From positions 2,244 through 30,849 of IMG/VR virus record IMGVR_UViG_3300029448_000243: a stretch of DNA of 28,606 nt. One strand, given 5' to 3'. Source of the stretch: a virus. Positions 20,255 through 28,487 of the stretch are shown one piece after another; the first letter of the stretch is position 1, and each line of letters opens with the position of its first letter. The notes below the pieces were generated by a model. The model was not told the DNA's origin and did not search any database. It saw only the letters and a program-made list of their open reading frames with translations. The position numbers and the translations under genes were made by a program.

Positions 20255-21673
20255 TTAAACTATTGATATATCAGGCCCTAACCTGCCTTTTGTATGCCAT
20301 TTTGATGTTTCTGTGTCTGCGTGTCTTAGGCTCATAGTTGCATATCTAGTAGCCGACATTAAATCGTCTTTTAATTTTACTAATTTACCATCTTTACGAT
20401 GATACATACGAAACTCTTGAAACCAATCGTATAGAGTATTAAAAACCTTAAATCTTCCTGTTTCCATTCGATTCAACATTTCCATTAATCCGGGTTCTAC
20501 CGAGTTTCCTCCCTTATTTTCTCCCAATGCAGGTGGATTTTCAAAGTGAAAAGGCATCATATTGACTCTAGCTTCCCTATATTGCTCTGCTAATGTCTTA
20601 CCCGAGCCTTTATCATGCTGATATCCGTCATGTGGCCATACTATTGGTATATAATGACTCCCTTCTCTTTCGTTTATATGACTTGCGTGATAGCTAGGTA
20701 TCTGTTTACTCATGCTATAACAGTCATAGACGTAAACAATATCCTCATCTCTATCCCAAGCCAACCAAGCTACTGCTGTAGGGTGGTCATAACCGAAGTC
20801 TAGTCCTGCGATTCTAGCGAAATGCTCTGGTATAGTGAAGGGTTCACAAGCTAGACTCTCCTCTAGGATAGGGAAAACGAGTCCACTACCTATTGTCGGA
20901 ATCCCTTTAGACCTCATTTCTCTCTCATGTGGAGGTAATGCTGCCAAAATCTGCTCTTTCATATCCTCTGTTAGATGACTAGCGTCTTCCCAACCTGCCG
21001 ATATTAAAGCCTGTTTAGGTCTTAATTCTGTTGTAAAATTCTGTACTACCTCTGTCATGCCTGATTCAGGGGTAAATGTCATGTAAACCTGCCCTTGTCT
21101 GTCTAGGGTACGAGTAATACATTGTGAATAGATATCCTGTGCTGGTTCTTCGTCTAACCAAACCAAATCTATAGACTCCCCCATAAATTTTTCAGCACCC
21201 ATTTCATAGGCTTTAAAGGCTACTCTTGACCAACCACCCGATGAATGTTTAACCAATACGGAGGAATGTGCGTTTGGTACACCGGGTTTTCTAGTCGTTT
21301 CGCCAATTAAGTGTTTTGGTATACTACCTTTACCCCTATCTCTAGGATTATCAGGTTGCCCAAATAACTCGCTTTGGCAGATATCTCTTGTGGTTTCATT
21401 GGACGCACCACATACCCAAGCCCGAATGGGCTTTAAAAATTTTTTTCCTTCCCACCAATCAGGGTATAATCCCGTCAAATGTATTGCCATTTCCATAGCA
21501 CCCACATAACTCTTACCTACCCTATTTGCCGCCATCAGTAATCTTTGATTAGCTTCTGCTCCAGCTTCGTGGAAACTCTTTTGAAATTTATAGGGTTTGT
21601 AGTAATTAAGTCTGTTTTCTTCGTGCCGTTTCTTTAGCGTTGTGAGTATTTCTTGTATTTTCTCTTGGCTCAT
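20255..21673 (-). CDS. terL: Terminase large subunit (472 aa)
   Basis: This is the packaging motor. An ATPase domain carries a Walker A (residues 48-55, AANRVGKS) and a Walker B (168-175, IDLVWLDEE), then the FTPESG coupling region near 200. The nuclease domain has an RNase-H-like acidic set: D292 in AGLDFGYD, D349 in PHDG, and D436/D437 in KLKDDLMSATRYA. The stretch AGWEDASHLTED (226-237) is typical of this family. Length is normal. The ribosome-binding site is weak. No small-subunit gene lies next to it; upstream is a 513-base noncoding stretch. Confidence 0.9.
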   Translation of the reverse strand: MSQEKIQEILTTLKKRHEENRLNYYKPYKFQKSFHEAGAEANQRLLMAANRVGKSYVGAMEMAIHLTGLYPDWWEGKKFLKPIRAWVCGASNETTRDICQSELFGQPDNPRDRGKGSIPKHLIGETTRKPGVPNAHSSVLVKHSSGGWSRVAFKAYEMGAEKFMGESIDLVWLDEEPAQDIYSQCITRTLDRQGQVYMTFTPESGMTEVVQNFTTELRPKQALISAGWEDASHLTEDMKEQILAALPPHEREMRSKGIPTIGSGLVFPILEESLACEPFTIPEHFARIAGLDFGYDHPTAVAWLAWDRDEDIVYVYDCYSMSKQIPSYHASHINEREGSHYIPIVWPHDGYQHDKGSGKTLAEQYREARVNMMPFHFENPPALGENKGGNSVEPGLMEMLNRMETGRFKVFNTLYDWFQEFRMYHRKDGKLVKLKDDLMSATRYATMSLRHADTETSKWHTKGRLGPDISIV

Positions 21674-21966: not shown

Positions 21967-21976
21967 GTGTTAACAA
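21967..21976. promoter_or_regulatory. GTTAAC palindrome copy 1 (GTGTTAACAA)
   Basis: Intergenic, upstream of the candidate late promoter of the terminase operon. It matches 9 of 10 positions of GTGTTAACAC. Confidence 0.55.
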
Positions 21977-22112
21977 TCTAATTATAATTTATTAATGTTT
22001 TATAGTTATATCTGTCTAAAGAATAATTAACTAAAGGATTTCTGCGACTTATGAATCTTTATATTTTCATTAGACCACTATAATAAAAACTTGATACGTA
22101 TTTAAATATTAA

Positions 22113-22122
22113 ATGTTAACAC
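22113..22122. promoter_or_regulatory. GTTAAC palindrome copy 2 (ATGTTAACAC)
   Basis: Intergenic, 15 bases beyond the terminator U-run of the SprT-like gene. No good promoter could be matched to it on either strand. Confidence 0.5.
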
Positions 22123-22136
22123 GTTAAATTTAAAAC

Positions 22137-22170
22137 AAAAAAAAAGAGCATTAAATTAATAATGCTCTTT
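22137..22170 (-). terminator. Intrinsic terminator of the SprT-like gene
   Basis: AAAGAGCATTA and TAATGCTCTTT form a perfect 11-bp stem with a 6-base loop. On the minus strand a run of nine T follows. It lies 17 bases after the SprT-like stop, so this gene is transcribed alone. It also insulates the late operon from read-through. Confidence 0.85.
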
Positions 22171-22186
22171 AGTTTTCCGTTATGTA

Positions 22187-23275
22187 TTATTTGTTAAACG
22201 GATTAGGTTCTAATGGTTTTTGTGGTTTTGTTGTTTCAACCATTTCAGTAGAGTCTTGATTTTCGTAATCTGTCCCTGCGTGATTACATTCCCATTTAAC
22301 ATTTGTATGTTTTGCGTTTTGATTAGTCACAGAGAATCTGCTTCCACAAGTTTCGCATTTGTATGTTTTTGTTTTACAAATTCTTTTCTTGCTTTCCCAA
22401 TTCCATTCAGTGAATAACCATTTCTTTCCCTCTTTGATAACGTCTTTAAACATAATATCAAAATCATCGTTAGGTTTAGTGCTAGTAAAATCTTTTCCCG
22501 ATTTACCACCAACACCATCAAGACCAACGGCTTTCGCAATTCTCTTGAACTCTTTCCCGTGTGAGCTTTTGCAATTATCTGTCGCATGAACTAACTCATG
22601 AACAAGAACTTCTAAAAAGTCATAAAAGTTTTTTACTGACCATTTAACTTTTTTCTTTTCTTCATCATGATAGAGAGTATCAATATTTACGTGTATTTGT
22701 GTCATTTTTTTATTTTGCTTGTCGCAAGATTTAGTATAACAATTTCCGAGAACTTTTGATTTTCCTCTGCTTGATATATGAGATAAAGAAACATTTATAT
22801 CAGACGGATTGAAAGTGTCTGTTGATTTATCTAAAAATATTTTAGATATCATTGGAAGAATCTTATCTATTATTTTTTGTCTAATAATATGTTCAGATTC
22901 TTTCACTTTAGATTTTGATATTTCTCTTTCTTTGTTGTTTTCTATATTATGATATTTTCTAACGTATTTAGTAATTAAAATATCATCTTTTCTATGTTGA
23001 GGATAATCTTTATTAATATAAAATTTATCCCCGAACTGTCCGAAGAATTTAGCAAGATTATATTTGCCGTCTTCTTCTAAATGTGCAAGAAAATCATTCA
23101 CAAGATTCATATCAATTCTCTTATTGAGAAATTTTTTGAACTTGTCATTTTCTCCTGCGATTGATTGAATTATGTTTAACCCTTTAACTCTCGGCTTGTT
23201 AGACGGATTATTAAAAGGAGCATAATTTTTATAATCGCTTTTTCTTTCTGTTTTTTTTCTTTCTGCTATTTTCAT
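22187..23275 (-). CDS. SprT-like zinc metalloprotease (362 aa)
   Basis: The catalytic motif is HELVH at residues 226-230, with the third zinc ligand in SSHGKEF (H239), as in the SprT/Spartan family. A C-terminal zinc ribbon follows (C307, C310, C330, with H332 nearby), also typical. Spartan proteases cut proteins crosslinked to DNA; phage members may free blocked replication forks or cut host DNA-bound proteins. The first 150 residues are charged and helical and not recognised. The ATG has AGGAAG nine bases upstream; that site touches a perfect parS sequence, so ParB binding could affect expression. The gene has its own terminator and is monocistronic. Confidence 0.8.
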   Translation of the reverse strand: MKIAERKKTERKSDYKNYAPFNNPSNKPRVKGLNIIQSIAGENDKFKKFLNKRIDMNLVNDFLAHLEEDGKYNLAKFFGQFGDKFYINKDYPQHRKDDILITKYVRKYHNIENNKEREISKSKVKESEHIIRQKIIDKILPMISKIFLDKSTDTFNPSDINVSLSHISSRGKSKVLGNCYTKSCDKQNKKMTQIHVNIDTLYHDEEKKKVKWSVKNFYDFLEVLVHELVHATDNCKSSHGKEFKRIAKAVGLDGVGGKSGKDFTSTKPNDDFDIMFKDVIKEGKKWLFTEWNWESKKRICKTKTYKCETCGSRFSVTNQNAKHTNVKWECNHAGTDYENQDSTEMVETTKPQKPLEPNPFNK

Positions 23276-23287
23276 TTTGTTTCTTCC

Positions 23288-23303
23288 TGTTTCACGTGAA
23301 ACA
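23288..23303. promoter_or_regulatory. parS: Perfect parS site (ParB-binding)
   Basis: TGTTTCACGTGAAACA is a perfect 16-bp palindrome and is identical to the chromosomal parS consensus of most bacteria, including alphaproteobacteria. ParB-CTP clamps load at this sequence and slide along DNA. No parA or parB gene is in the window, so host ParB is the likely partner. It overlaps by one base the Shine-Dalgarno site of the SprT-like gene (23283-23288). It is the only copy seen here. Confidence 0.85.
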
Positions 23304-23330
23304 TTTATTAATTAGATAAAATCACTTTAT

Positions 23331-23344
23331 CTATACTAGTATAG
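23331..23344. promoter_or_regulatory. 14-bp palindrome, possible operator
   Basis: CTATACTAGTATAG is a perfect palindrome upstream of the SprT-like gene. Its ATACT/AGTAT arms are shared with the 20-bp palindrome 62 bases away. It includes TATACT on the minus strand, a possible -10 with a poor -35, so it may be an operator over the promoter. Confidence 0.45.
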
Positions 23345-23374
23345 TATCAAACTTTAAACAGATTTAAAAGCTTT

Positions 23375-23384
23375 ATGTTAACTA
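23375..23384. promoter_or_regulatory. GTTAAC palindrome copy 3 (ATGTTAACTA)
   Basis: A weaker copy that lies almost midway between the two ATACT/AGTAT palindromes upstream of the SprT-like gene. Confidence 0.4.
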
Positions 23385-23405
23385 TTTTTATTTGAATACG
23401 GGTTT

Positions 23406-23425
23406 ATACTATATATATATAGTAT
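23406..23425. repeat. 20-bp AT palindrome
   Basis: The arms ATACT and AGTAT enclose ten alternating A and T bases. It is a perfect palindrome that could extrude as a cruciform or bind a dimeric protein, and it begins a long stretch of almost pure A and T. Confidence 0.5.
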
Positions 23426-23469
23426 TAAATAATTTAAATATTGAAATTAAATTAAATAATGCTTGACTT

Positions 23470-23609
23470 TTGTAGAACGTCAAAAATGAGCCGATAAGGA
23501 GCTTACAGAAGATTGAAACCTTTAAGGTATAATCATACACGGGCTATTGTAAAACGTCCATTTTGAGCATGATTTCGAGCCACGTAAAATCAATGACTTA
23601 CAGAGGATT
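23470..23609 (+). repeat. Two-copy imperfect direct repeat
   Basis: Unit 1 (23470-23514) and unit 2 (23548-23609) share two blocks in the same order: TTGTARAACGTC...GAGC at the start and CTTACAGARGATT at the end. The spacer between blocks is 10 bases in one unit and 28 in the other. Conserved ends with a variable middle suggest paired protein sites or related small structured RNAs. Confidence 0.45.
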
Positions 23610-23708
23610 TTTATTTAGTAATATTTTAGAAAGTCAAACTTTATTTTATTTATATTTTACGTTTTACTGTTTACTATTATTTTAATCTATGCCGTGTTTA
23701 AAATTGAA

Positions 23709-23718
23709 ATGTTAACAC
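23709..23718. promoter_or_regulatory. GTTAAC palindrome copy 4 (ATGTTAACAC)
   Basis: Intergenic, upstream of the plus-strand gene trio. It has a tail of A and T with ATCA about 16 bases on, like copies 5, 7 and 8. Confidence 0.5.
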
Positions 23719-23779
23719 TAAAAATTTAATCACATGAGCAAGAACAATATCAAGAGCAAGTAATGTATTTAAAAATTTT

Positions 23780-23805
23780 ATGTTAACACTAAAAAAATAA
23801 ATCAT
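23780..23805 (+). repeat. 26-bp extended GTTAAC repeat, copy A (palindrome copy 5)
   Basis: ATGTTAACAC followed by three variable bases and AAAAATAAATCAT. The same 26-base layout recurs at 25081 and 25496 without gaps. It lies about 100 bases upstream of the first plus-strand gene. Confidence 0.6.
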
Positions 23806-23905
23806 TATTATTATAAAATAAAAGTTTAAATTCTTACTAATTAATTGTAGAATTATATTAATGATTGAGTGATTTAATCATGCTAATTAAATAAAAGGTA
23901 AATAT

Positions 23906-24163
23906 ATGAATATTGACAATTTAAAAGTATCAGAAAGAGGAAGCAATTATTTTGTATTATCAGATAATAAATGTTCACGTCTTTATAGCTACAATTCATT
24001 AATAGCTATTAAATTCTATGACGGCAAGACTTTTCTTGATAATAAAACATGGGATTACTCTTTGACAACAGGAAAGCATAGAAATGCTTTTCTAGGAGAA
24101 GATAAAAAAATCACATCTTACAAAATCAAAGAGGGTATATATCAACTTAAAGACTTGAATTAA
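23906..24163 (+). CDS. Small conserved-type phage protein (85 aa)
   Basis: The sequence has a strand-rich core: YFVLSDNKCSRLYSYNSLIAIKF, then KTFLDNKTWDYSLTTGKHRNAFLG and a closing KIKEGIYQLKDL. The 'SYNSLIA...K.W..S.TT.KH...FLG' layout recurs in small early phage proteins of unknown function. AAAGG lies eight bases upstream of the ATG. It is the first of three plus-strand genes, against the direction of all others in the window, and follows two GTTAAC palindromes. Confidence 0.7.
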   Translation: MNIDNLKVSERGSNYFVLSDNKCSRLYSYNSLIAIKFYDGKTFLDNKTWDYSLTTGKHRNAFLGEDKKITSYKIKEGIYQLKDLN

Positions 24164-24170
24164 AAATTAA

Positions 24171-24180
24171 GTGTTAACAA
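24171..24180. promoter_or_regulatory. GTTAAC palindrome copy 6 (GTGTTAACAA)
   Basis: Lies eight bases after the stop of the first plus-strand gene and about 53 bases before the next start, with an A/T tail like the 26-bp repeats. Confidence 0.5.
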
Positions 24181-24232
24181 ATAAAAAATAAAGGAATGAT
24201 TTAACGGGCATGGAAGCCTAAGAGGGATAAAC

Positions 24233-24391
24233 ATGAAAGTAGAAGAAAAAATAGAAAAGAACATAGAAAAAACATTGAGAAAATTAGGTCGAGCAGTGAC
24301 TAGTCTTGATTGCTTAGAAGCTTATTCGGATTTACAAAGATTTTGCACTCATTACGAATTACAGAAAAAAAGCGAGAAAGAAAATGAATAA
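24233..24391 (+). CDS. Small helical protein (52 aa)
   Basis: Short gene reading MKVEEKIEKNIEKTLRKLGR at the start and YELQKKSEKENE at the end. It is mostly amphipathic helix with two cysteines (DCLEAYSDLQRFC). A good ribosome-binding site (AGAGGG, eight bases upstream) supports the start. It overlaps the next gene by eight bases (ATGAATAA), so the two are probably coupled. No family recognised. Confidence 0.65.
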   Translation: MKVEEKIEKNIEKTLRKLGRAVTSLDCLEAYSDLQRFCTHYELQKKSEKENE

Positions 24392-24926
24392 ATTAAAATT
24401 AACAAAAAGAGATTATCACGGAAGAAACGTAAAACAACGTATTCAAAAAATTATTGATGATACGAGGGAATGTAGAAAAAAAATAAAGACGGATATAAAA
24501 CTACCCGAAACTTTATCATGGAATGAAGCAAAACGTCTATACAATGAATTTGATAACGCAAAAGTTTATATCAATGATATATACCAAGTTTTATATTACG
24601 ATGAAAAAATGGTCGATAATATGGGTTGTTCATCAGAAACTTTTAAAGAACAAATTAGATATTTGAGTATCAAACGACACGATAAAGAAGCCGTTAAAGA
24701 TTGGAGAGATTTCCAAGACATAAAAAACCAATTATGTGGAGAAGATTCGGAAGCCGTTGAATTATTCCCGAGTGAAACTAGGTTAGTAGATACGGCCAAC
24801 CAATATCATTTATGGGTATTCCCTAAAGGTTATATCCTTCCGTTTGGAATGATAGCAAGAGCAGTAATAGAAGATGAGCTTGACGGAGAGGGAGAAACAG
24901 CAAAACAGAGAGCAAGAATTGATTAA
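24384..24926 (+). CDS. Phage protein with conserved C-terminal domain (180 aa)
   Basis: Residues 1-95 are helical and basic. From about residue 100 the sequence is WRDFQDIKNQLCGEDSEAVE, then LFPSETRLVDTANQYHLWVF and KGYILPFGM. I recognise the 'ESRLVDTANQYHLW' type block from a widespread phage family of unknown function (I believe DUF7694). The tail (DELDGEGETAKQRARI) also fits. The gene is coupled to the small helical gene before it. The function is unknown; an early role is inferred from position. Confidence 0.7.
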   Translation: MNKLKLTKRDYHGRNVKQRIQKIIDDTRECRKKIKTDIKLPETLSWNEAKRLYNEFDNAKVYINDIYQVLYYDEKMVDNMGCSSETFKEQIRYLSIKRHDKEAVKDWRDFQDIKNQLCGEDSEAVELFPSETRLVDTANQYHLWVFPKGYILPFGMIARAVIEDELDGEGETAKQRARID

Positions 24927-24959
24927 CTGAAAAAATCGGCTCTTTGACAGCTTCATAAT

Positions 24960-25012
24960 GCCTTTAAAATATATTTTGATGATGTATTACTCATAGAGAT
25001 TATTTTAAGGGC
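24960..25012 (+). other. Long stem after the plus-strand genes
   Basis: GCCTTTAAAATA pairs with TATTTTAAGGGC over 12 bp with one G-U pair and a 29-base loop. It begins 34 bases after the last plus-strand stop and could protect the 3' end of the mRNA. Confidence 0.45.
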
Positions 25013-25029
25013 AAAATCAAGGGCAAAAT
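25007..25029 (+). repeat. Tandem 11-bp repeat AAGGGCAAAAT
   Basis: Two exact copies separated by one base. The first overlaps the right arm of the 12-bp stem, so the second could pair in its place with one arm shift. Role unknown. Confidence 0.5.
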
Positions 25030-25041
25030 ATCTATAAAAAT

Positions 25042-25073
25042 CAATAACTTGCAATGGAACAGTTATTGGTTTT
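25042..25073 (+). terminator. Probable weak terminator of the plus-strand trio
   Basis: CAATAACT and AGTTATTG form an 8-bp stem with an 11-base loop, followed by G and four T. It lies 116 bases after the last plus-strand gene. Confidence 0.45.
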
Positions 25074-25080
25074 AACTTGA

Positions 25081-25106
25081 ATGTTAACACGTAAAAAATA
25101 AATCAT
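25081..25106 (+). repeat. 26-bp extended GTTAAC repeat, copy B (palindrome copy 7)
   Basis: ATGTTAACAC, three variable bases, then AAAAATAAATCAT. The palindrome centre is about 75 bp upstream of the start predicted for the noncoding RNA, one helical turn further than at three minus-strand promoters. Confidence 0.65.
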
Positions 25107-25125
25107 ATTTTTTTTATTTTTTTTG

Positions 25126-25154
25126 TTGACAAAAACAACAAGTATTGATATTAT
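25126..25154 (+). promoter_or_regulatory. Strong sigma70-type promoter of the noncoding RNA
   Basis: TTGACA, a 17-base spacer and TATTAT (with TGA just before it, an extended -10). T-rich DNA before the -35 looks like an UP element. The last bases of the spacer, the -10 and the following sequence (TTGATATTATTTAAACAT) are identical to the promoter at 26508-26535 on the minus strand. Confidence 0.85.
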
Positions 25155-25160
25155 TTAAAC

Positions 25161-25481
25161 ATAGACATGATTAGAGAGTTTGACTCGCAAGGTTGAACTG
25201 TCATTCAAGTCAAAAATTGGACTTTAATGGTGTGGATTGATTTTGTACAGAGTTAATCTAAGGATTTAAATGAGAAAATAGAATAGCTTGAATGGATAAT
25301 TAACAATTTGCACATCGATGTGGAACATTGTTAAAAATTGAAAGAGTCTTAGGGTTTACATGTGCGAATATCTATTGCTCTCCACATCGTAGCCTGATTA
25401 AAAACAGCTAGAAAGCACGTTCACCTGATTTATTAATTAATAGACGTGAAGAAATTAAACAGCTAAATAGCTGTTTTTAAT
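25161..25481 (+). ncRNA. Candidate ~320-nt noncoding RNA
   Basis: A near-consensus promoter reads into 320 bases with no open frame with a ribosome-binding site, and a terminator hairpin ends it. Possible structure: TTGAC/GTCAA with an inner TTGAA/TTCAA near 25180-25213; TTAACAAT/ATTGTTAA (25300-25334) around CACATCGATGTG; TCCACATCG (25381-25389) able to pair with CGATGTGGA (25316-25324). It does not look like tRNA, tmRNA, 6S or RNase P RNA to me. The terminator can also serve the convergent minus-strand gene. Its expression may be driven by the upstream GTTAAC site. Confidence 0.6.
25457..25481 (+). terminator. Terminator of the noncoding RNA, probably bidirectional
   Basis: AAACAGCTA and TAGCTGTTT form a 9-bp stem (short loop) followed by TTAAT. 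TAGCTGTTTTTAAT (25468-25481) is also a perfect 14-base complement of 25397-25410, so a longer competing stem is possible. On the minus strand it may end the transcript of the gene at 25518. Confidence 0.65.
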
Positions 25482-25495
25482 TGTTTAAAATAAAT

Positions 25496-25521
25496 ATGTT
25501 AACACAATAAAAATAAATCAT
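25496..25521 (+). repeat. 26-bp extended GTTAAC repeat, copy C (palindrome copy 8)
   Basis: Same layout as the copies at 23780 and 25081. Its last bases (ATCAT) include the stop codon of the minus-strand gene that ends at 25518. Confidence 0.6.
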
Positions 25522-25823
25522 TTTTCTGATTCTTTCATCTCATTTATTTTCTCGGGACAACCTGTCCCATACTTTGCTTTTATTCTTGCTATCTCTTGTT
25601 TTATCGCCATAAGCCATATGCAATCAGCAAGAGTACATAAATTGGTGTTGTTTACGTTGTCCAAATAATGACTATGAAGCAATCTAAGACCTTTTATGCC
25701 TATCTTAGTACACTTCTTTTGTATTTCATTGGCTCTAATCTCGGTATCAGAGTAATTGTTTCCCTCTGATACCTCTTTTTCTGAAGCCATAGTCATTATA
25801 TCTCTGTCTGTATGTAGTTTCAT
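25518..25823 (-). CDS. Small early protein, unknown (101 aa)
   Basis: Helical and charged, with the stretches YSDTEIRANEIQKKCTKIGI and LADCIWLMAIKQEIARIKAK. Four cysteines are scattered without a clear zinc pattern. The ATG overlaps the previous stop as ATGA, so it is coupled to the 75-residue gene upstream and shares its promoter at 26079-26107. It is the last gene of this minus-strand unit. Function unknown. Confidence 0.65.
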   Translation of the reverse strand: MKLHTDRDIMTMASEKEVSEGNNYSDTEIRANEIQKKCTKIGIKGLRLLHSHYLDNVNNTNLCTLADCIWLMAIKQEIARIKAKYGTGCPEKINEMKESEK

Positions 25824-26047
25824 TCTACGGCTTCTAAATGTTCTTCTTCCATAAAGACTACTATTTGATAGTTTCTTTTTGGCGACATTTTTTGTAAAGC
25901 ATTTTTTAAGTCTATTACTTTGTCTTCATCTTCCCACGTTTCAGACGCATGAGTGTACATACTGTTTTTACTGTACTCTGATGTATAGACGATGCCATAT
26001 CTTAATGTTCTCTTTGGTTCTGCTTCTTGTTTTTTAAATATTTCCAT
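25820..26047 (-). CDS. Small early protein, unknown (75 aa)
   Basis: I chose the ATG at 26047 because AAGGAG lies six bases upstream and a good promoter lies just before it; an upstream ATG at 26107 would lie inside that promoter. The protein reads MEIFKKQEAEPKRTLRYGIV and later NYQIVVFMEEEHLEAVE, with alternating strands and helices. It is the first gene of a two-gene unit with its own GTTAAC palindrome. Function unknown. Confidence 0.7.
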   Translation of the reverse strand: MEIFKKQEAEPKRTLRYGIVYTSEYSKNSMYTHASETWEDEDKVIDLKNALQKMSPKRNYQIVVFMEEEHLEAVE

Positions 26048-26078
26048 AAGTTTCTCCTTGTTTCGATTAATATAAATT

Positions 26079-26107
26079 AGTATAGCATTGTTATAGTATA
26101 ACATCAA
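26079..26107 (-). promoter_or_regulatory. Sigma70-type promoter of the 25820-26047 gene
   Basis: On the minus strand: TTGATG, 17 bases, TATACT, preceded by TGC (extended -10). The predicted start near 26072 gives a 25-base leader with a strong ribosome-binding site. The centre of the GTTAAC palindrome is about 64 bp upstream of the start. Confidence 0.8.
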
Positions 26108-26129
26108 ACTTTTTATATCTTTATTTTTG

Positions 26130-26143
26130 TTGTGTTAACACAA
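26130..26143. promoter_or_regulatory. GTTAAC palindrome copy 9 (TTGTGTTAACACAA)
   Basis: A perfect 14-bp palindrome, the best form in the window. It lies between the terminator of one unit and the promoter of the next, centred about 29 bp outside the -35. Confidence 0.75.
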
Positions 26144-26166
26144 AAAAAAGCCACTTCCATGTGGCT
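26142..26166 (-). terminator. Intrinsic terminator of the 26182-26478 gene
   Basis: On the minus strand AGCCAC and GTGGCT form a stem with a 6-base loop, followed by eight T. It lies 15 bases after the stop. The T-run merges into the palindrome of the next unit. Confidence 0.85.
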
Positions 26167-26181
26167 CGTCTTTGAGGAAAA

Positions 26182-26478
26182 TTAATTCTCGGTAGTATCA
26201 GAAACTTCTTCTATTTCTCCTCCATGACAATCTTCTTCTTCTACGTGTGGATTTTGTTCTAAATCTTCTTCAAATTTTGCTTCTGCTTCTTCTAAAGAAT
26301 CGGCTTGGCAATATCTGTACTCGTAAATGACATTAGATATTTTGGCACAATACTCATTTTTGCCATCTGACATACTTTTCTTATGTTTTAAGTCTTTTAG
26401 TGTGTGCATTTTTTCTCTTATATCTTTCTCTACGTTTTCTATTCCTATTTCTATATTGTTTTCTGCTTTGTTTTCCAT
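26182..26478 (-). CDS. Small acidic early protein, unknown (98 aa)
   Basis: Two parts: a helical first half (NVEKDIREKMHTLKDLKHKK) and a second half with a short beta core (CAKISNVIYEYRYCQADSLE) and a very acidic tail (EEEDCHGGEIEEVSDTTE). AGGAG lies eight bases before the ATG. It has its own promoter (26508-26535) and terminator, so it is a single-gene unit. The acidic tail could mimic DNA, as in some phage inhibitors, but nothing specific is recognised. Confidence 0.7.
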   Translation of the reverse strand: MENKAENNIEIGIENVEKDIREKMHTLKDLKHKKSMSDGKNEYCAKISNVIYEYRYCQADSLEEAEAKFEEDLEQNPHVEEEDCHGGEIEEVSDTTEN

Positions 26479-26507
26479 TTTTTTACTCCTACGTTATTCA
26501 TGTTTAA

Positions 26508-26535
26508 ATAATATCAAAATTCAAAATAATTGCAA
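26508..26535 (-). promoter_or_regulatory. Sigma70-type promoter of the 26182-26478 gene
   Basis: On the minus strand: TTGCAA, 16 bases, TATTAT with TGA before it. The start near 26501 gives a 23-base leader. The -10 and its flanks match the noncoding-RNA promoter over 18 bases (TTGATATTATTTAAACAT). The GTTAAC centre is about 62 bp upstream of the start. Confidence 0.75.
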
Positions 26536-26556
26536 CTTATTTTAAGAGTTATATAT

Positions 26557-26570
26557 TTGTGTTAACACAA
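26557..26570. promoter_or_regulatory. GTTAAC palindrome copy 10 (TTGTGTTAACACAA)
   Basis: A second perfect 14-bp copy, centred about 28 bp outside the -35 of the promoter at 26508-26535, and 12 bases after the stop of the next gene upstream. Confidence 0.75.
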
Positions 26571-26582
26571 TAATTTTAAATA

Positions 26583-26915
26583 CTAATGTTTTGTTCTAGT
26601 GTTATTCTTTACTACAATTTTTTTCTTTTTCTCTATATCTAAAACTTCTCTTTCAACTTCTATCCACTCGCTAACGATATCTTTCATAAGATGTTCTAGA
26701 AGAATAAAACTTTCTTCTTGCGAGAATTTACGTTTTCTACCTGACATCAATATGCAATGGTGTATGCTCTCTAGCACGACATTCATCATACAATCTACGA
26801 CAATTTTACCCGATTCTTCTGTTTTATTATATTTTTCCCAACCATTGTTTTCAAAAAAATAAATCATAGTGCTTGTCACTTCTTCAATTATTTCGTCTTT
26901 TGTATATTTTTTCAT
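26583..26915 (-). CDS. Small helical early protein, unknown (110 aa)
   Basis: Mostly helix, with a hydrophobic first half (EVTSTMIYFFENNGWEKYNK, VVDCMMNVVLESIHHCILMS), the basic stretch GRKRKFSQEES and a basic end (KKKKIVVKNNTRTKH). AGGAAA lies before the ATG. It begins 23 bases after the stop of the Cys-rich gene and probably shares its promoter. Function not recognised. Confidence 0.65.
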   Translation of the reverse strand: MKKYTKDEIIEEVTSTMIYFFENNGWEKYNKTEESGKIVVDCMMNVVLESIHHCILMSGRKRKFSQEESFILLEHLMKDIVSEWIEVEREVLDIEKKKKIVVKNNTRTKH

Positions 26916-26938
26916 TATATTTCCTGTTATTTATTTGT

Positions 26939-27253
26939 TTAAATTTGCAAGTACCATGCTAAAAGCTCATCAATATCATTCCCGTCTTGGTCATAACCTC
27001 TACCATAATGGTTCATTCCTCTGAATTTGCACTCAGTACGACAGGCACGACATTTGCCTTTTGGTTTAGGTAAGCCACACATAGCCAATGCGTAATCACA
27101 AGAGGGTTCGATATCAAGTCCTTTCTTTTTTGCTTTTTTAAAACATGATATGAATTTATGATACATATCAAAATCTTTAGCTTGTTCTAAACATCTCTTG
27201 TAATATTTTTTATTCCTAGATTTTCTCCAATCTTTTAAATAATTATTAGTCAT
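26939..27253 (-). CDS. Cys-rich basic early protein, possibly leaderless (104 aa)
   Basis: Basic and helical at the start (YLKDWRKSRNKKYYKRCLEQ), then a cysteine cluster near residues 52-73 (CDYALAMCGLPKPKGKCRAC, then RTEC) that could bind zinc. A near-perfect promoter has its -10 only six bases before the ATG, so the mRNA would begin at or next to the start codon. No ribosome-binding site precedes it. The product may bind nucleic acid, but no family is recognised. Confidence 0.65.
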   Translation of the reverse strand: MTNNYLKDWRKSRNKKYYKRCLEQAKDFDMYHKFISCFKKAKKKGLDIEPSCDYALAMCGLPKPKGKCRACRTECKFRGMNHYGRGYDQDGNDIDELLAWYLQI

Positions 27254-27259
27254 AATTAA

Positions 27260-27288
27260 ATATTAGTCAATATTGTTGTTATTGTCAA
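27260..27288 (-). promoter_or_regulatory. Near-consensus promoter of the 26939-27253 gene
   Basis: On the minus strand: TTGACA, 17 bases, TAATAT. The predicted start, about 27251-27255, falls on the ATG (27253). The GTTAAC palindrome centre is about 65 bp upstream. Confidence 0.8.
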
Positions 27289-27313
27289 TGGCAGTTAAGC
27301 ATTTATTATTTTT

Positions 27314-27323
27314 GTGTTAACTT
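27314..27323. promoter_or_regulatory. GTTAAC palindrome copy 11 (GTGTTAACTT)
   Basis: Overlaps the stop codon of the upstream gene. It is centred about 30 bp outside the -35 of the promoter at 27260-27288. Confidence 0.6.
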
Positions 27324-27610
27324 CTATTTTCTAAAGACTTTAGTTTTTCTTCTAATTGTTTAGTATAATTTTTTTTATCCTGATTATACCTTTTCTGATA
27401 TTCAAGTCTTGCGTCCCTGTTTTTTAAATATCTTTCTTTTTGCTTAGATAATCTTATTTCTCTTTCTTCTTTGGCTTCTGTTTTTCTTTTTAGCTTACCT
27501 TTTTCTAATAATTCTTTTTTTTGTTCCTGAGAGAGATTTTCGTATCTGTTTTTTTGTCTTTCTTTTATTTTTTCAGCATTTTTTTTATAGTATTCTGTCC
27601 AATAGGTCAT
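27317..27610 (-). CDS. Highly charged helical protein, unknown (97 aa)
   Basis: I chose the ATG at 27610 because GGAG lies nine bases upstream; an ATG at 27634 would lie in the GTTAAC palindrome and lacks a site. The protein is almost all K, E, R, Q and Y (MTYWTEYYKKNAEKIKERQK, then LKNRDARLEYQKRYNQDKKN), a single long charged helix. Such proteins recur in phage early regions; the role is unknown. It follows the SSB-like-tail gene by 30 bases. Confidence 0.65.
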   Translation of the reverse strand: MTYWTEYYKKNAEKIKERQKNRYENLSQEQKKELLEKGKLKRKTEAKEEREIRLSKQKERYLKNRDARLEYQKRYNQDKKNYTKQLEEKLKSLENRS

Positions 27611-27624
27611 GTTTAATTCTCCAT

Positions 27625-27634
27625 GTGTTAACAT
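27625..27634. promoter_or_regulatory. GTTAAC palindrome copy 12 (GTGTTAACAT)
   Basis: In the 30-base gap before the 27317-27610 gene. No promoter at the usual distance was found. Confidence 0.5.
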
Positions 27635-27640
27635 TAATAT

Positions 27641-27967
27641 CTAGAATGGTAAATCATCGTCCCCATTCTTTACTCTTTGATACTCATTGTCTTCTTTGTT
27701 TTCTTGTTTTGGCTTGTTTTCTTTAGAGAATACTTTTCTTTTCTCTTTTTTGTACGTCACAAATCTCTTGCCGTCTTTTTCGTTTAACCAAATAGATATG
27801 GATTGTGGCTCTGCGTCTTGGCTAGACAAAAAATTATTGTTTTGAAACAAGGGAAAAGCTTTGCCCTCGTTCATATACAAATCTTTTGCTTTATCAAACA
27901 ATTCTTCCATTTCTTTTTGGTATTTATCGTTAATAAATAGATTTTCAAATATTGGTTTATCCGTCAT
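27641..27967 (-). CDS. Protein with SSB-like C-terminal tail (108 aa)
   Basis: The C-terminus is NGDDDLPF, the same type as the DDDIPF tip that bacterial SSB uses to recruit repair and replication proteins. A linker rich in K, E and N precedes it, as in SSB. The region QSISIWLNEKDGKRFVTYKK could be part of a small beta fold, but a full OB fold is not clear in so short a protein. A single-strand DNA-binding role is likely but unproven. AGGAGAG precedes the ATG, which overlaps the previous stop as ATGA. Confidence 0.6.
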   Translation of the reverse strand: MTDKPIFENLFINDKYQKEMEELFDKAKDLYMNEGKAFPLFQNNNFLSSQDAEPQSISIWLNEKDGKRFVTYKKEKRKVFSKENKPKQENKEDNEYQRVKNGDDDLPF

Positions 27968-28134
27968 TTTTTGCTCTCCTGTATTATGTTTAATATTTTT
28001 TCTGCCATGTATTGTCTTGTTTCTTTTCGTAATAATTCTTCTTTTGTTCCTAAAGGGAATTTTTTAGAATTTTTAATCTGTTCTAAACAATACCCCTCTA
28101 TCTTATTTAATACCCATAAATTTAATTGACTCAT
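27964..28134 (-). CDS. Small helical protein, unknown (56 aa)
   Basis: Short gene reading MSQLNLWVLNKIEGYCLEQI at the start and MAEKILNIIQESKK at the end. All helical. GGAG lies six bases before the ATG, and the stop overlaps the next start as ATGA, so it is probably coupled to the SSB-like-tail gene. Function unknown. Confidence 0.7.
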   Translation of the reverse strand: MSQLNLWVLNKIEGYCLEQIKNSKKFPLGTKEELLRKETRQYMAEKILNIIQESKK

Positions 28135-28136
28135 GT

Positions 28137-28487
28137 TTACTCCGTAATTATTCCCGATTCTCTAATCTCATGCTCTATTTCATTGTATAAAGAGTTCCCT
28201 CTGTAAGTATTTTCCATGACCTTAGATTCCTCGTTTCTTTTATAAAAAGATTCTTCTAACTCTCTATCTATTCTGACTAAATTATCTACTACTGCTCTAT
28301 AAACTATTTCAGACAATTCAACGATTTTTTGTTCTTTCATTTCTGCGTAAAATTCTCTCATCATCTTTTCTTCTTCTTCCCGTGTAGCTGGTTTTTTTTG
28401 TGTTAACACATCTTTTTTAAATATGTTGTCGTAATTAGTGTTAAACTTCTCTTTGTTGAATTTTCTCACTCTGTCGCCTTTACTCAT
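28137..28487 (-). CDS. Small early phage protein (116 aa)
   Basis: The start MSKGDRVRKFNKEKFNTNYD and NIF is a type seen at the N-terminus of many small phage proteins of unknown role. The rest is helical and charged (MMREFYAEMKEQKIVELSEI). The ATG overlaps the end of the previous gene as ATGAGTAA. A GTTAAC palindrome lies inside the gene at codons 26-29; a shorter product from the ATG at 28361 would place it upstream, but the conserved start favours the long form. Function unknown. Confidence 0.65.
   Translation of the reverse strand: MSKGDRVRKFNKEKFNTNYDNIFKKDVLTQKKPATREEEEKMMREFYAEMKEQKIVELSEIVYRAVVDNLVRIDRELEESFYKRNEESKVMENTYRGNSLYNEIEHEIRESGIITE
28400..28409. promoter_or_regulatory. GTTAAC palindrome copy 13 (GTGTTAACAC), inside a gene
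   Basis: Perfect core, 12-bp palindrome TGTGTTAACACA. It is the only full-core copy inside a coding region and encodes parts of V-L-T. Confidence 0.5.

Follow-up and report, generated by a model that had tools for sequence, protein, structure and literature searches.

Why would a marine phage that lacks recognisable partition proteins carry a perfect copy of parS, the centromere site of bacterial chromosomes, and what might it do with it? In bacteria, ParB dimers nucleate at parS, bind CTP, close into clamps and slide off, and the resulting complex is moved by ParA and can be recognised by SMC. The window, which is the whole stretch of 28,606 nucleotides analysed here, belongs to a virus fragment of 30,849 bases in IMG/VR. 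The initial annotation of this DNA pointed out one parS site and proposed that the phage may recruit host ParB to it.

The parS site and its setting

The sequence TGTTTCACGTGAAACA (Table 1) matches the parS consensus at 16 of 16 positions, as had been noticed, and is a perfect palindrome. It is single-copy in its IMG/VR record; no second parS-like site was found at up to three mismatches across the window, or at up to two across the remainder of the 30,849 bases. Dinucleotide shuffling of the window gave an expectation of 0.22 sites at up to three mismatches. Thus, an exact parS is very unlikely in one window. Recurrence among relatives is a stronger test against chance than this single-window shuffle.

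Table 1. Features of the parS locus, in window coordinates
Feature	Position	Strand	Basis
parS-type site TGTTTCACGTGAAACA, proposed host-ParB loading site	23288..23303	.	Exact match; recurs in relatives; many SAR11 genomes have it as their one chromosomal parS
Shine-Dalgarno-like leader GGAAGAAACAAA, between parS and the ATG of the SprT-like ORF	23276..23287	-	Sequence; conserved in L126 and L127, largely in L129
SprT-like zinc peptidase ORF of 362 aa, at the head of the terminase/structural operon	22187..23275	-	Pfam SprT-like; phrog_6361
Terminase large subunit, anchor for collecting relatives	20255..21673	-	Pfam Terminase_6N, 4.5e-31
Divergent AT-rich intergenic region with parS and two operator-like TGTTAACA repeats	23276..23905	.	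ORF list, motif search, repeats

parS precedes the ATG of the SprT-like ORF by 12 bp and sits inside a divergent intergenic region of 630 bp. The ORF matched phrog_6361 (E=1.5e-14); its Pfam SprT-like match (E=8e-4) was under the cut-off, and the corresponding match was above it in the relatives L134 and L148. It stands at the head of a late operon that leads to the terminase, portal and capsid genes. One leader, with parS and a ribosome-binding site, precedes three different first genes in the window and in two kinds of close relative (L126/L127 and L129). Thus, parS is part of the leader module rather than of any single gene. Behind the conserved leader, the SprT-like ORF of the window (23276) is replaced in close phages by a 110-aa ORF or a 56-aa ORF (L126:5030, L129:410), and the head of the late operon appears to be an insertion hotspot. 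No RNA families were found near parS.

The same part of the window carries another palindrome, TGTTAACA, in 11 copies (21968, 22114, 23710, 23781, 24172, 25082, 25497, 26133, 26560, 27626 and 28401; span 21968-28408), compared with 1.3 expected; 11 copies were reached in 0 of 100 shuffles. All of them are confined to the 6.6 kb at the right-hand end, for the most part in gaps between genes, and they share a longer AT-rich symmetric context, TTAAA...TGTTAACA...TTTAA. The set looks like a phage operator array. The palindrome is also present in the relatives G001, L133, L136 and L148, and is absent from the pelagiphages Baldr and HTVC106P. Arrays of it occurred in 6 of 19 loci with parS and in 0 of 21 without, counts taken from loci that are not independent. 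An exclusive link between parS and TGTTAACA was discarded, as other lineages, both with and without parS, have different palindromic repeats; we therefore make no causal claim. In the corresponding upstream region of L139, L166, L171 and L132, we saw other repeated palindromes (TATTAG-N6-CTAATA, ATTAG-N6-CTAAT and TGTTTAAACA), as if operator specificity had been swapped.

Recurrence of parS among phages

We took 80 terminase relatives (83-99% identical) from IMG/VR, many of which have parS, with 0-2 mismatches, upstream of terminase. Enrichment was tested on 44 dereplicated regions of up to 6 kb upstream of terminase, with 400 palindromes of permuted half-site as the control. parS was found at one mismatch or fewer in 10 of the 44 regions, whereas the permuted palindromes gave a mean of 0.0025 and a maximum of 1. 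At two mismatches or fewer the count was 14 of 44, against a mean of 0.04. Thus, the early judgement that the match is unlikely to be accidental holds both for the single window and, far more strongly, for the relatives. When whole loci were counted, parS was present in 12 of 50 from the window's clade and 2 of 46 from its sister clade, and at one mismatch or fewer in 0 of 45 from the Baldr clade. One of the sister-clade phages, L021 (terminase identity 58%), has an exact parS 680 bp upstream of terminase.

Absence of parS from all close relatives would have spoken against a role for it. Instead, all close relatives with a contig that spans this region have it (L022, L126-L128 and L129), as do about eight further sublineages with terminase identities of 83-87%, in addition to L021. 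Conservation within the closest cluster is uninformative because the entire leader is conserved there, parS being no exception. Mapped onto the terminase tree, presence and absence of parS require 11 changes, of which supported branches force at least nine. Thus, parS has been gained or lost repeatedly. Its positions in the relatives are non-homologous (in a 5'UTR, upstream of a TTGACA-like box, within the SprT ORF, behind a stop codon), and its distance to terminase ranges over 0.16-4.7 kb. In most cases it is found at the start of the terminase/structural operon or close to it. There is usually one parS per phage genome.

About half of the sublineages with sufficient upstream sequence have no parS, so such phages can do without it. 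Nor is it a general pelagiphage trait: besides the Baldr clade count, it was not found in Baldr, in HTVC106P or in 20 other named phage records, mostly cultured pelagiphages.

In L134 and L148 parS lies inside the SprT-like gene. There, the codons for identical residues (GTT TCA CGT ACA) are unchanged, whereas 41% of the identical-residue codons of the gene overall differ. The sole change inside parS, GAA to GGA, alters the amino acid and yields an accepted variant, TGTTTCACGTGGAACA. This pattern is suggestive; with four codons only, it is not significant alone.

The site recurs beyond these relatives. Some exact 16-mers are expected among 2.9 million IMG/VR contigs, and a control palindrome of the same composition occurred in 11 over the complete set; exact parS occurred in at least 120. 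Among the matches listed, 54% of exact sites were inside ORFs, compared with 90% for random positions of the same contigs, and 89 of 94 contigs had no ParB_N match (five had a match of any strength, three of them above the cut-off). Since many of these contigs are fragments, this count of lone sites is an upper estimate. Enrichment, the changes on the tree and the intergenic bias, with the codon pattern as support, show that parS is maintained by selection and that its recurrence is not due to chance.

Two further observations concern the listed matches. In four contigs without a ParB_N match (L017, L044, L053 and L010) we counted three to five exact parS each; these could be pieces of larger elements or phages that have centromere arrays. 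The exact viral sites (L002-L121) tend to have A A just before and T T just after them, with A in 113 of 204 and 106 of 204 half-flanks. The sequence recognised may thus extend beyond the 16-mer.

Likely host, site variants and partition genes

The genes recognised (those for Terminase_6, a portal and a major capsid protein of SU10 type, a scaffolding protein and tail proteins) are those of a tailed phage within the broad SU10/PaP3-like relationship. By terminase, the nearest isolate is Pelagibacter phage Baldr (61%); by capsid, it is Pelagibacter phage HTVC106P (52%); and by the SPRY-domain tail protein, the nearest isolates are again pelagiphages (42%). Thus, SAR11 is the likely host group, as judged by distant kinship to isolates. 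A terminase search of bacterial genomes gave no SAR11 match.

The suggested comparison with the parS of the likely host turned out in favour of the proposal, as the SAR11 group has the identical site with its own parAB beside it. parS was present at one mismatch or fewer in 64 of 117 Pelagibacteraceae genomes, and 62 of the 64 had exactly one site; the reversed control was found in two genomes. Our entry point to this family was G281, identified as SAR11 by its exact match to a SAR11 16S probe sequence. The SAR11 chromosomal parS falls within the initial codons of rsmG, contributing the residues VSRET, and is followed by parA and parB (Pfam matches GidB, AAA_31 and ParB_N/HTH_ParB/ParB_C).

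In phage sites, departures from the consensus affect positions 1 and 16 (to C, G or A), positions 5 and 12 (TGTTCCAC, GTGGAACA) and the centre (TGTTTCATGTGAAACA). Besides the consensus, the variants of SAR11 chromosomes include TGTTCCACGTGAAACA and sites with A or C at position 1; some SAR11 genomes have CGTTTCACGTGAAACA or TGTTCCACGTGAAACA/TGTTTCACGTGGAACA as their only parS. Of 289 alphaproteobacterial genomes in a class-wide search, used solely for variant calibration, 21 have TGTTTCATGTGAAACA, and about 10 of these have no consensus site; the reversed control was found in none. The phage deviations are thus chromosome-type variants, and the window site, a 16-bp palindrome of the consensus form, would itself be classed as a chromosome-type parS. 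In the same class, three genomes have 78, 18 and 13 exact copies (G306, 1.8 Mb; G287, 2.8 Mb; G278, 1.3 Mb), many more than the usual 1-3.

Neither a ParB_N nor a ParA match was found in the window, in agreement with its first reading, and neither gene turned up in the part of the 30,849 bases outside it. ParB_N (PF02195) was not found in 29 records, nor ParA-type AAA_31 (PF13614) or a phage (tyrosine) integrase in 28; the par searches took in our own record, and the records, some of them fragments, include relatives of 36-41 kb, which likewise have neither par gene. A complete ParABS system, with parA and parB linked to parS, was thus not found in these records. In G001, a close relative of 37.3 kb, no ORF resembled a polymerase or an integrase, and a 148-aa protein had a weak match to a helicase-loader family. 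This suggests, tentatively, that a phage of this type may rely on the host replisome. As regards a phage-plasmid, we found no integrase and no par genes, only the weak helicase-loader match and small HTH proteins.

Possible use of host ParB in trans

As parS recurs far above chance and the phage has no partition genes of its own, it probably borrows the segregation machinery of its host. We consider it likely that the site is a functional, cis-acting centromere of the host type, predicted to load host ParB. The sites in relatives, the lack of par genes and the presence of the same site with parAB in the host group support the earlier reading that the phage may recruit host ParB, whose binding and purpose here are inferred.

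We propose that, in an infected SAR11-like cell, host ParB would nucleate on the phage parS, close into CTP-dependent sliding clamps and spread across the phage genome. The ParB-coated genome would then be a partition complex and cargo for host ParA, possibly also for SMC. The most likely benefit would be that phage DNA is positioned and spread on the nucleoid, and inherited if the cell divides or if the phage persists as an episome, with no genome spent on parAB. An episomal stage is a guess, because we recognised no gene for plasmid replication or for lysogeny. As a possible second effect, the adjacent late operon might be silenced until phage copies outnumber ParB. If host ParB is indeed used, positioning or partition has close to an even chance of being the purpose; regulation of the late operon is a weaker candidate, and titration of host ParB on the one hand, and condensation, SMC or packaging on the other, are each unlikely.

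One special case of host ParB use is a copy-number timer, in which ParB clamps would silence the adjacent late operon early and replication would dilute ParB until late transcription sets in. The usual place of parS at or near the head of the terminase operon fits such a timer, and the plasmid protein KorB, a clamp of the ParB family, is reported to silence at long range (PMC11790492). The variable distance of parS from terminase does not fit. Chromosomal ParB usually silences weakly, which also counts against a timer, and we regard it as rather doubtful.

In another special case, the replicating phage would act as a sponge that strips ParB off the chromosomal parS, so that host segregation is blocked or resources are freed. 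As the SAR11 chromosome nearly always has a single parS, a phage present in even modest copy number would exceed it, and the integrative element SGI1 displaces its helper plasmid likewise (PMC10954446). We think this improbable nonetheless: several sites would pay, yet the phages usually have one, and blocked segregation is of little obvious value in a fast lytic cycle.

It is also quite unlikely that parS is an operator of the late operon, recognised as a palindrome by a transcription regulator of phage or host and with no part for ParB. The location of the window's parS in the 5' leader of that operon, and beside TTGACA-like promoter boxes in several relatives, would suit an operator. However, its placement with respect to promoter and gene varies, and in some phages it is upstream of the promoter or in the first gene, which weakens a strict promoter operator in particular; the phage variants are those of chromosomal parS; and parS is usually present once per genome, compared with the 11 copies of the operator-like TGTTAACA. 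As the phages retain the sequence but place it only loosely near the terminase operon, spreading is probably more important than precise contact with a promoter. This favours positioning or partition by host ParB above a simple operator, with silencing of the late operon as an addition or an alternative.

A chance palindrome, or a captured host rsmG fragment that hitch-hikes, is highly improbable, the first being rejected on the enrichment in relatives, the tree changes, the IMG/VR control, the clade counts and the intergenic bias, and the second because the phage flanks share only the five parS-encoded residues VSRET.

The nearest described precedent for the proposed borrowing of ParB is SGI1, which mimics parS and relies for its own inheritance on the ParABS system of its helper IncC plasmid (PMC10954446). 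In both cases, a mobile element without its own partition proteins has parS-like sites for the ParB of another replicon, with binding inferred in the phage, whose site equals the parS of the likely host group. SGI1 differs in that it mimics a plasmid parS, in two copies and with a helper protein, Sci, whereas the phage has a chromosomal parS, usually single, and no recognised helper. Compared with the chromosomal ParABS of SAR11, the phage has the identical 16-bp site and an overlapping variant set, but the cis site alone. The phage-plasmids P1 and N15, and mycobacteriophages with extrachromosomal prophages, also have a centromere on the phage genome, but they encode their own ParA/ParB for matching private centromeres, and none was found here. 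Filamentous phages use host XerCD at dif-like sites and so likewise exploit a chromosome-maintenance protein through a copied host cis site; the outcome there is recombination and integration, rather than the ParB loading proposed here. A recent survey covers ParB-like proteins of phages and, in its accessible part, does not deal with parS in ParB-less phages (PMC12704722). No report of a lone chromosomal parS in ParB-less phages emerged from our literature search, which covered a minority of the subscription papers.

We tentatively suggest, at somewhat less than even confidence, that lone chromosomal parS sites are widespread in bacterial viruses: many tailed phages may independently keep one 'parasitic centromere' that matches the variant of the host, and host ParB may partition, position or time the phage genome in normal infection. 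Copies of host sites for recombination and replication are known from phages; if a phage used the chromosomal centromere, this would be exploitation of a new form. Phage DNA would then be tied to ParB clamps, possibly to SMC, and might be actively positioned in tiny SAR11 cells. The system is simple, with one 16-bp site, one host gene and nearly always one chromosomal parS, and its parS variants might aid host prediction for uncultured viruses.
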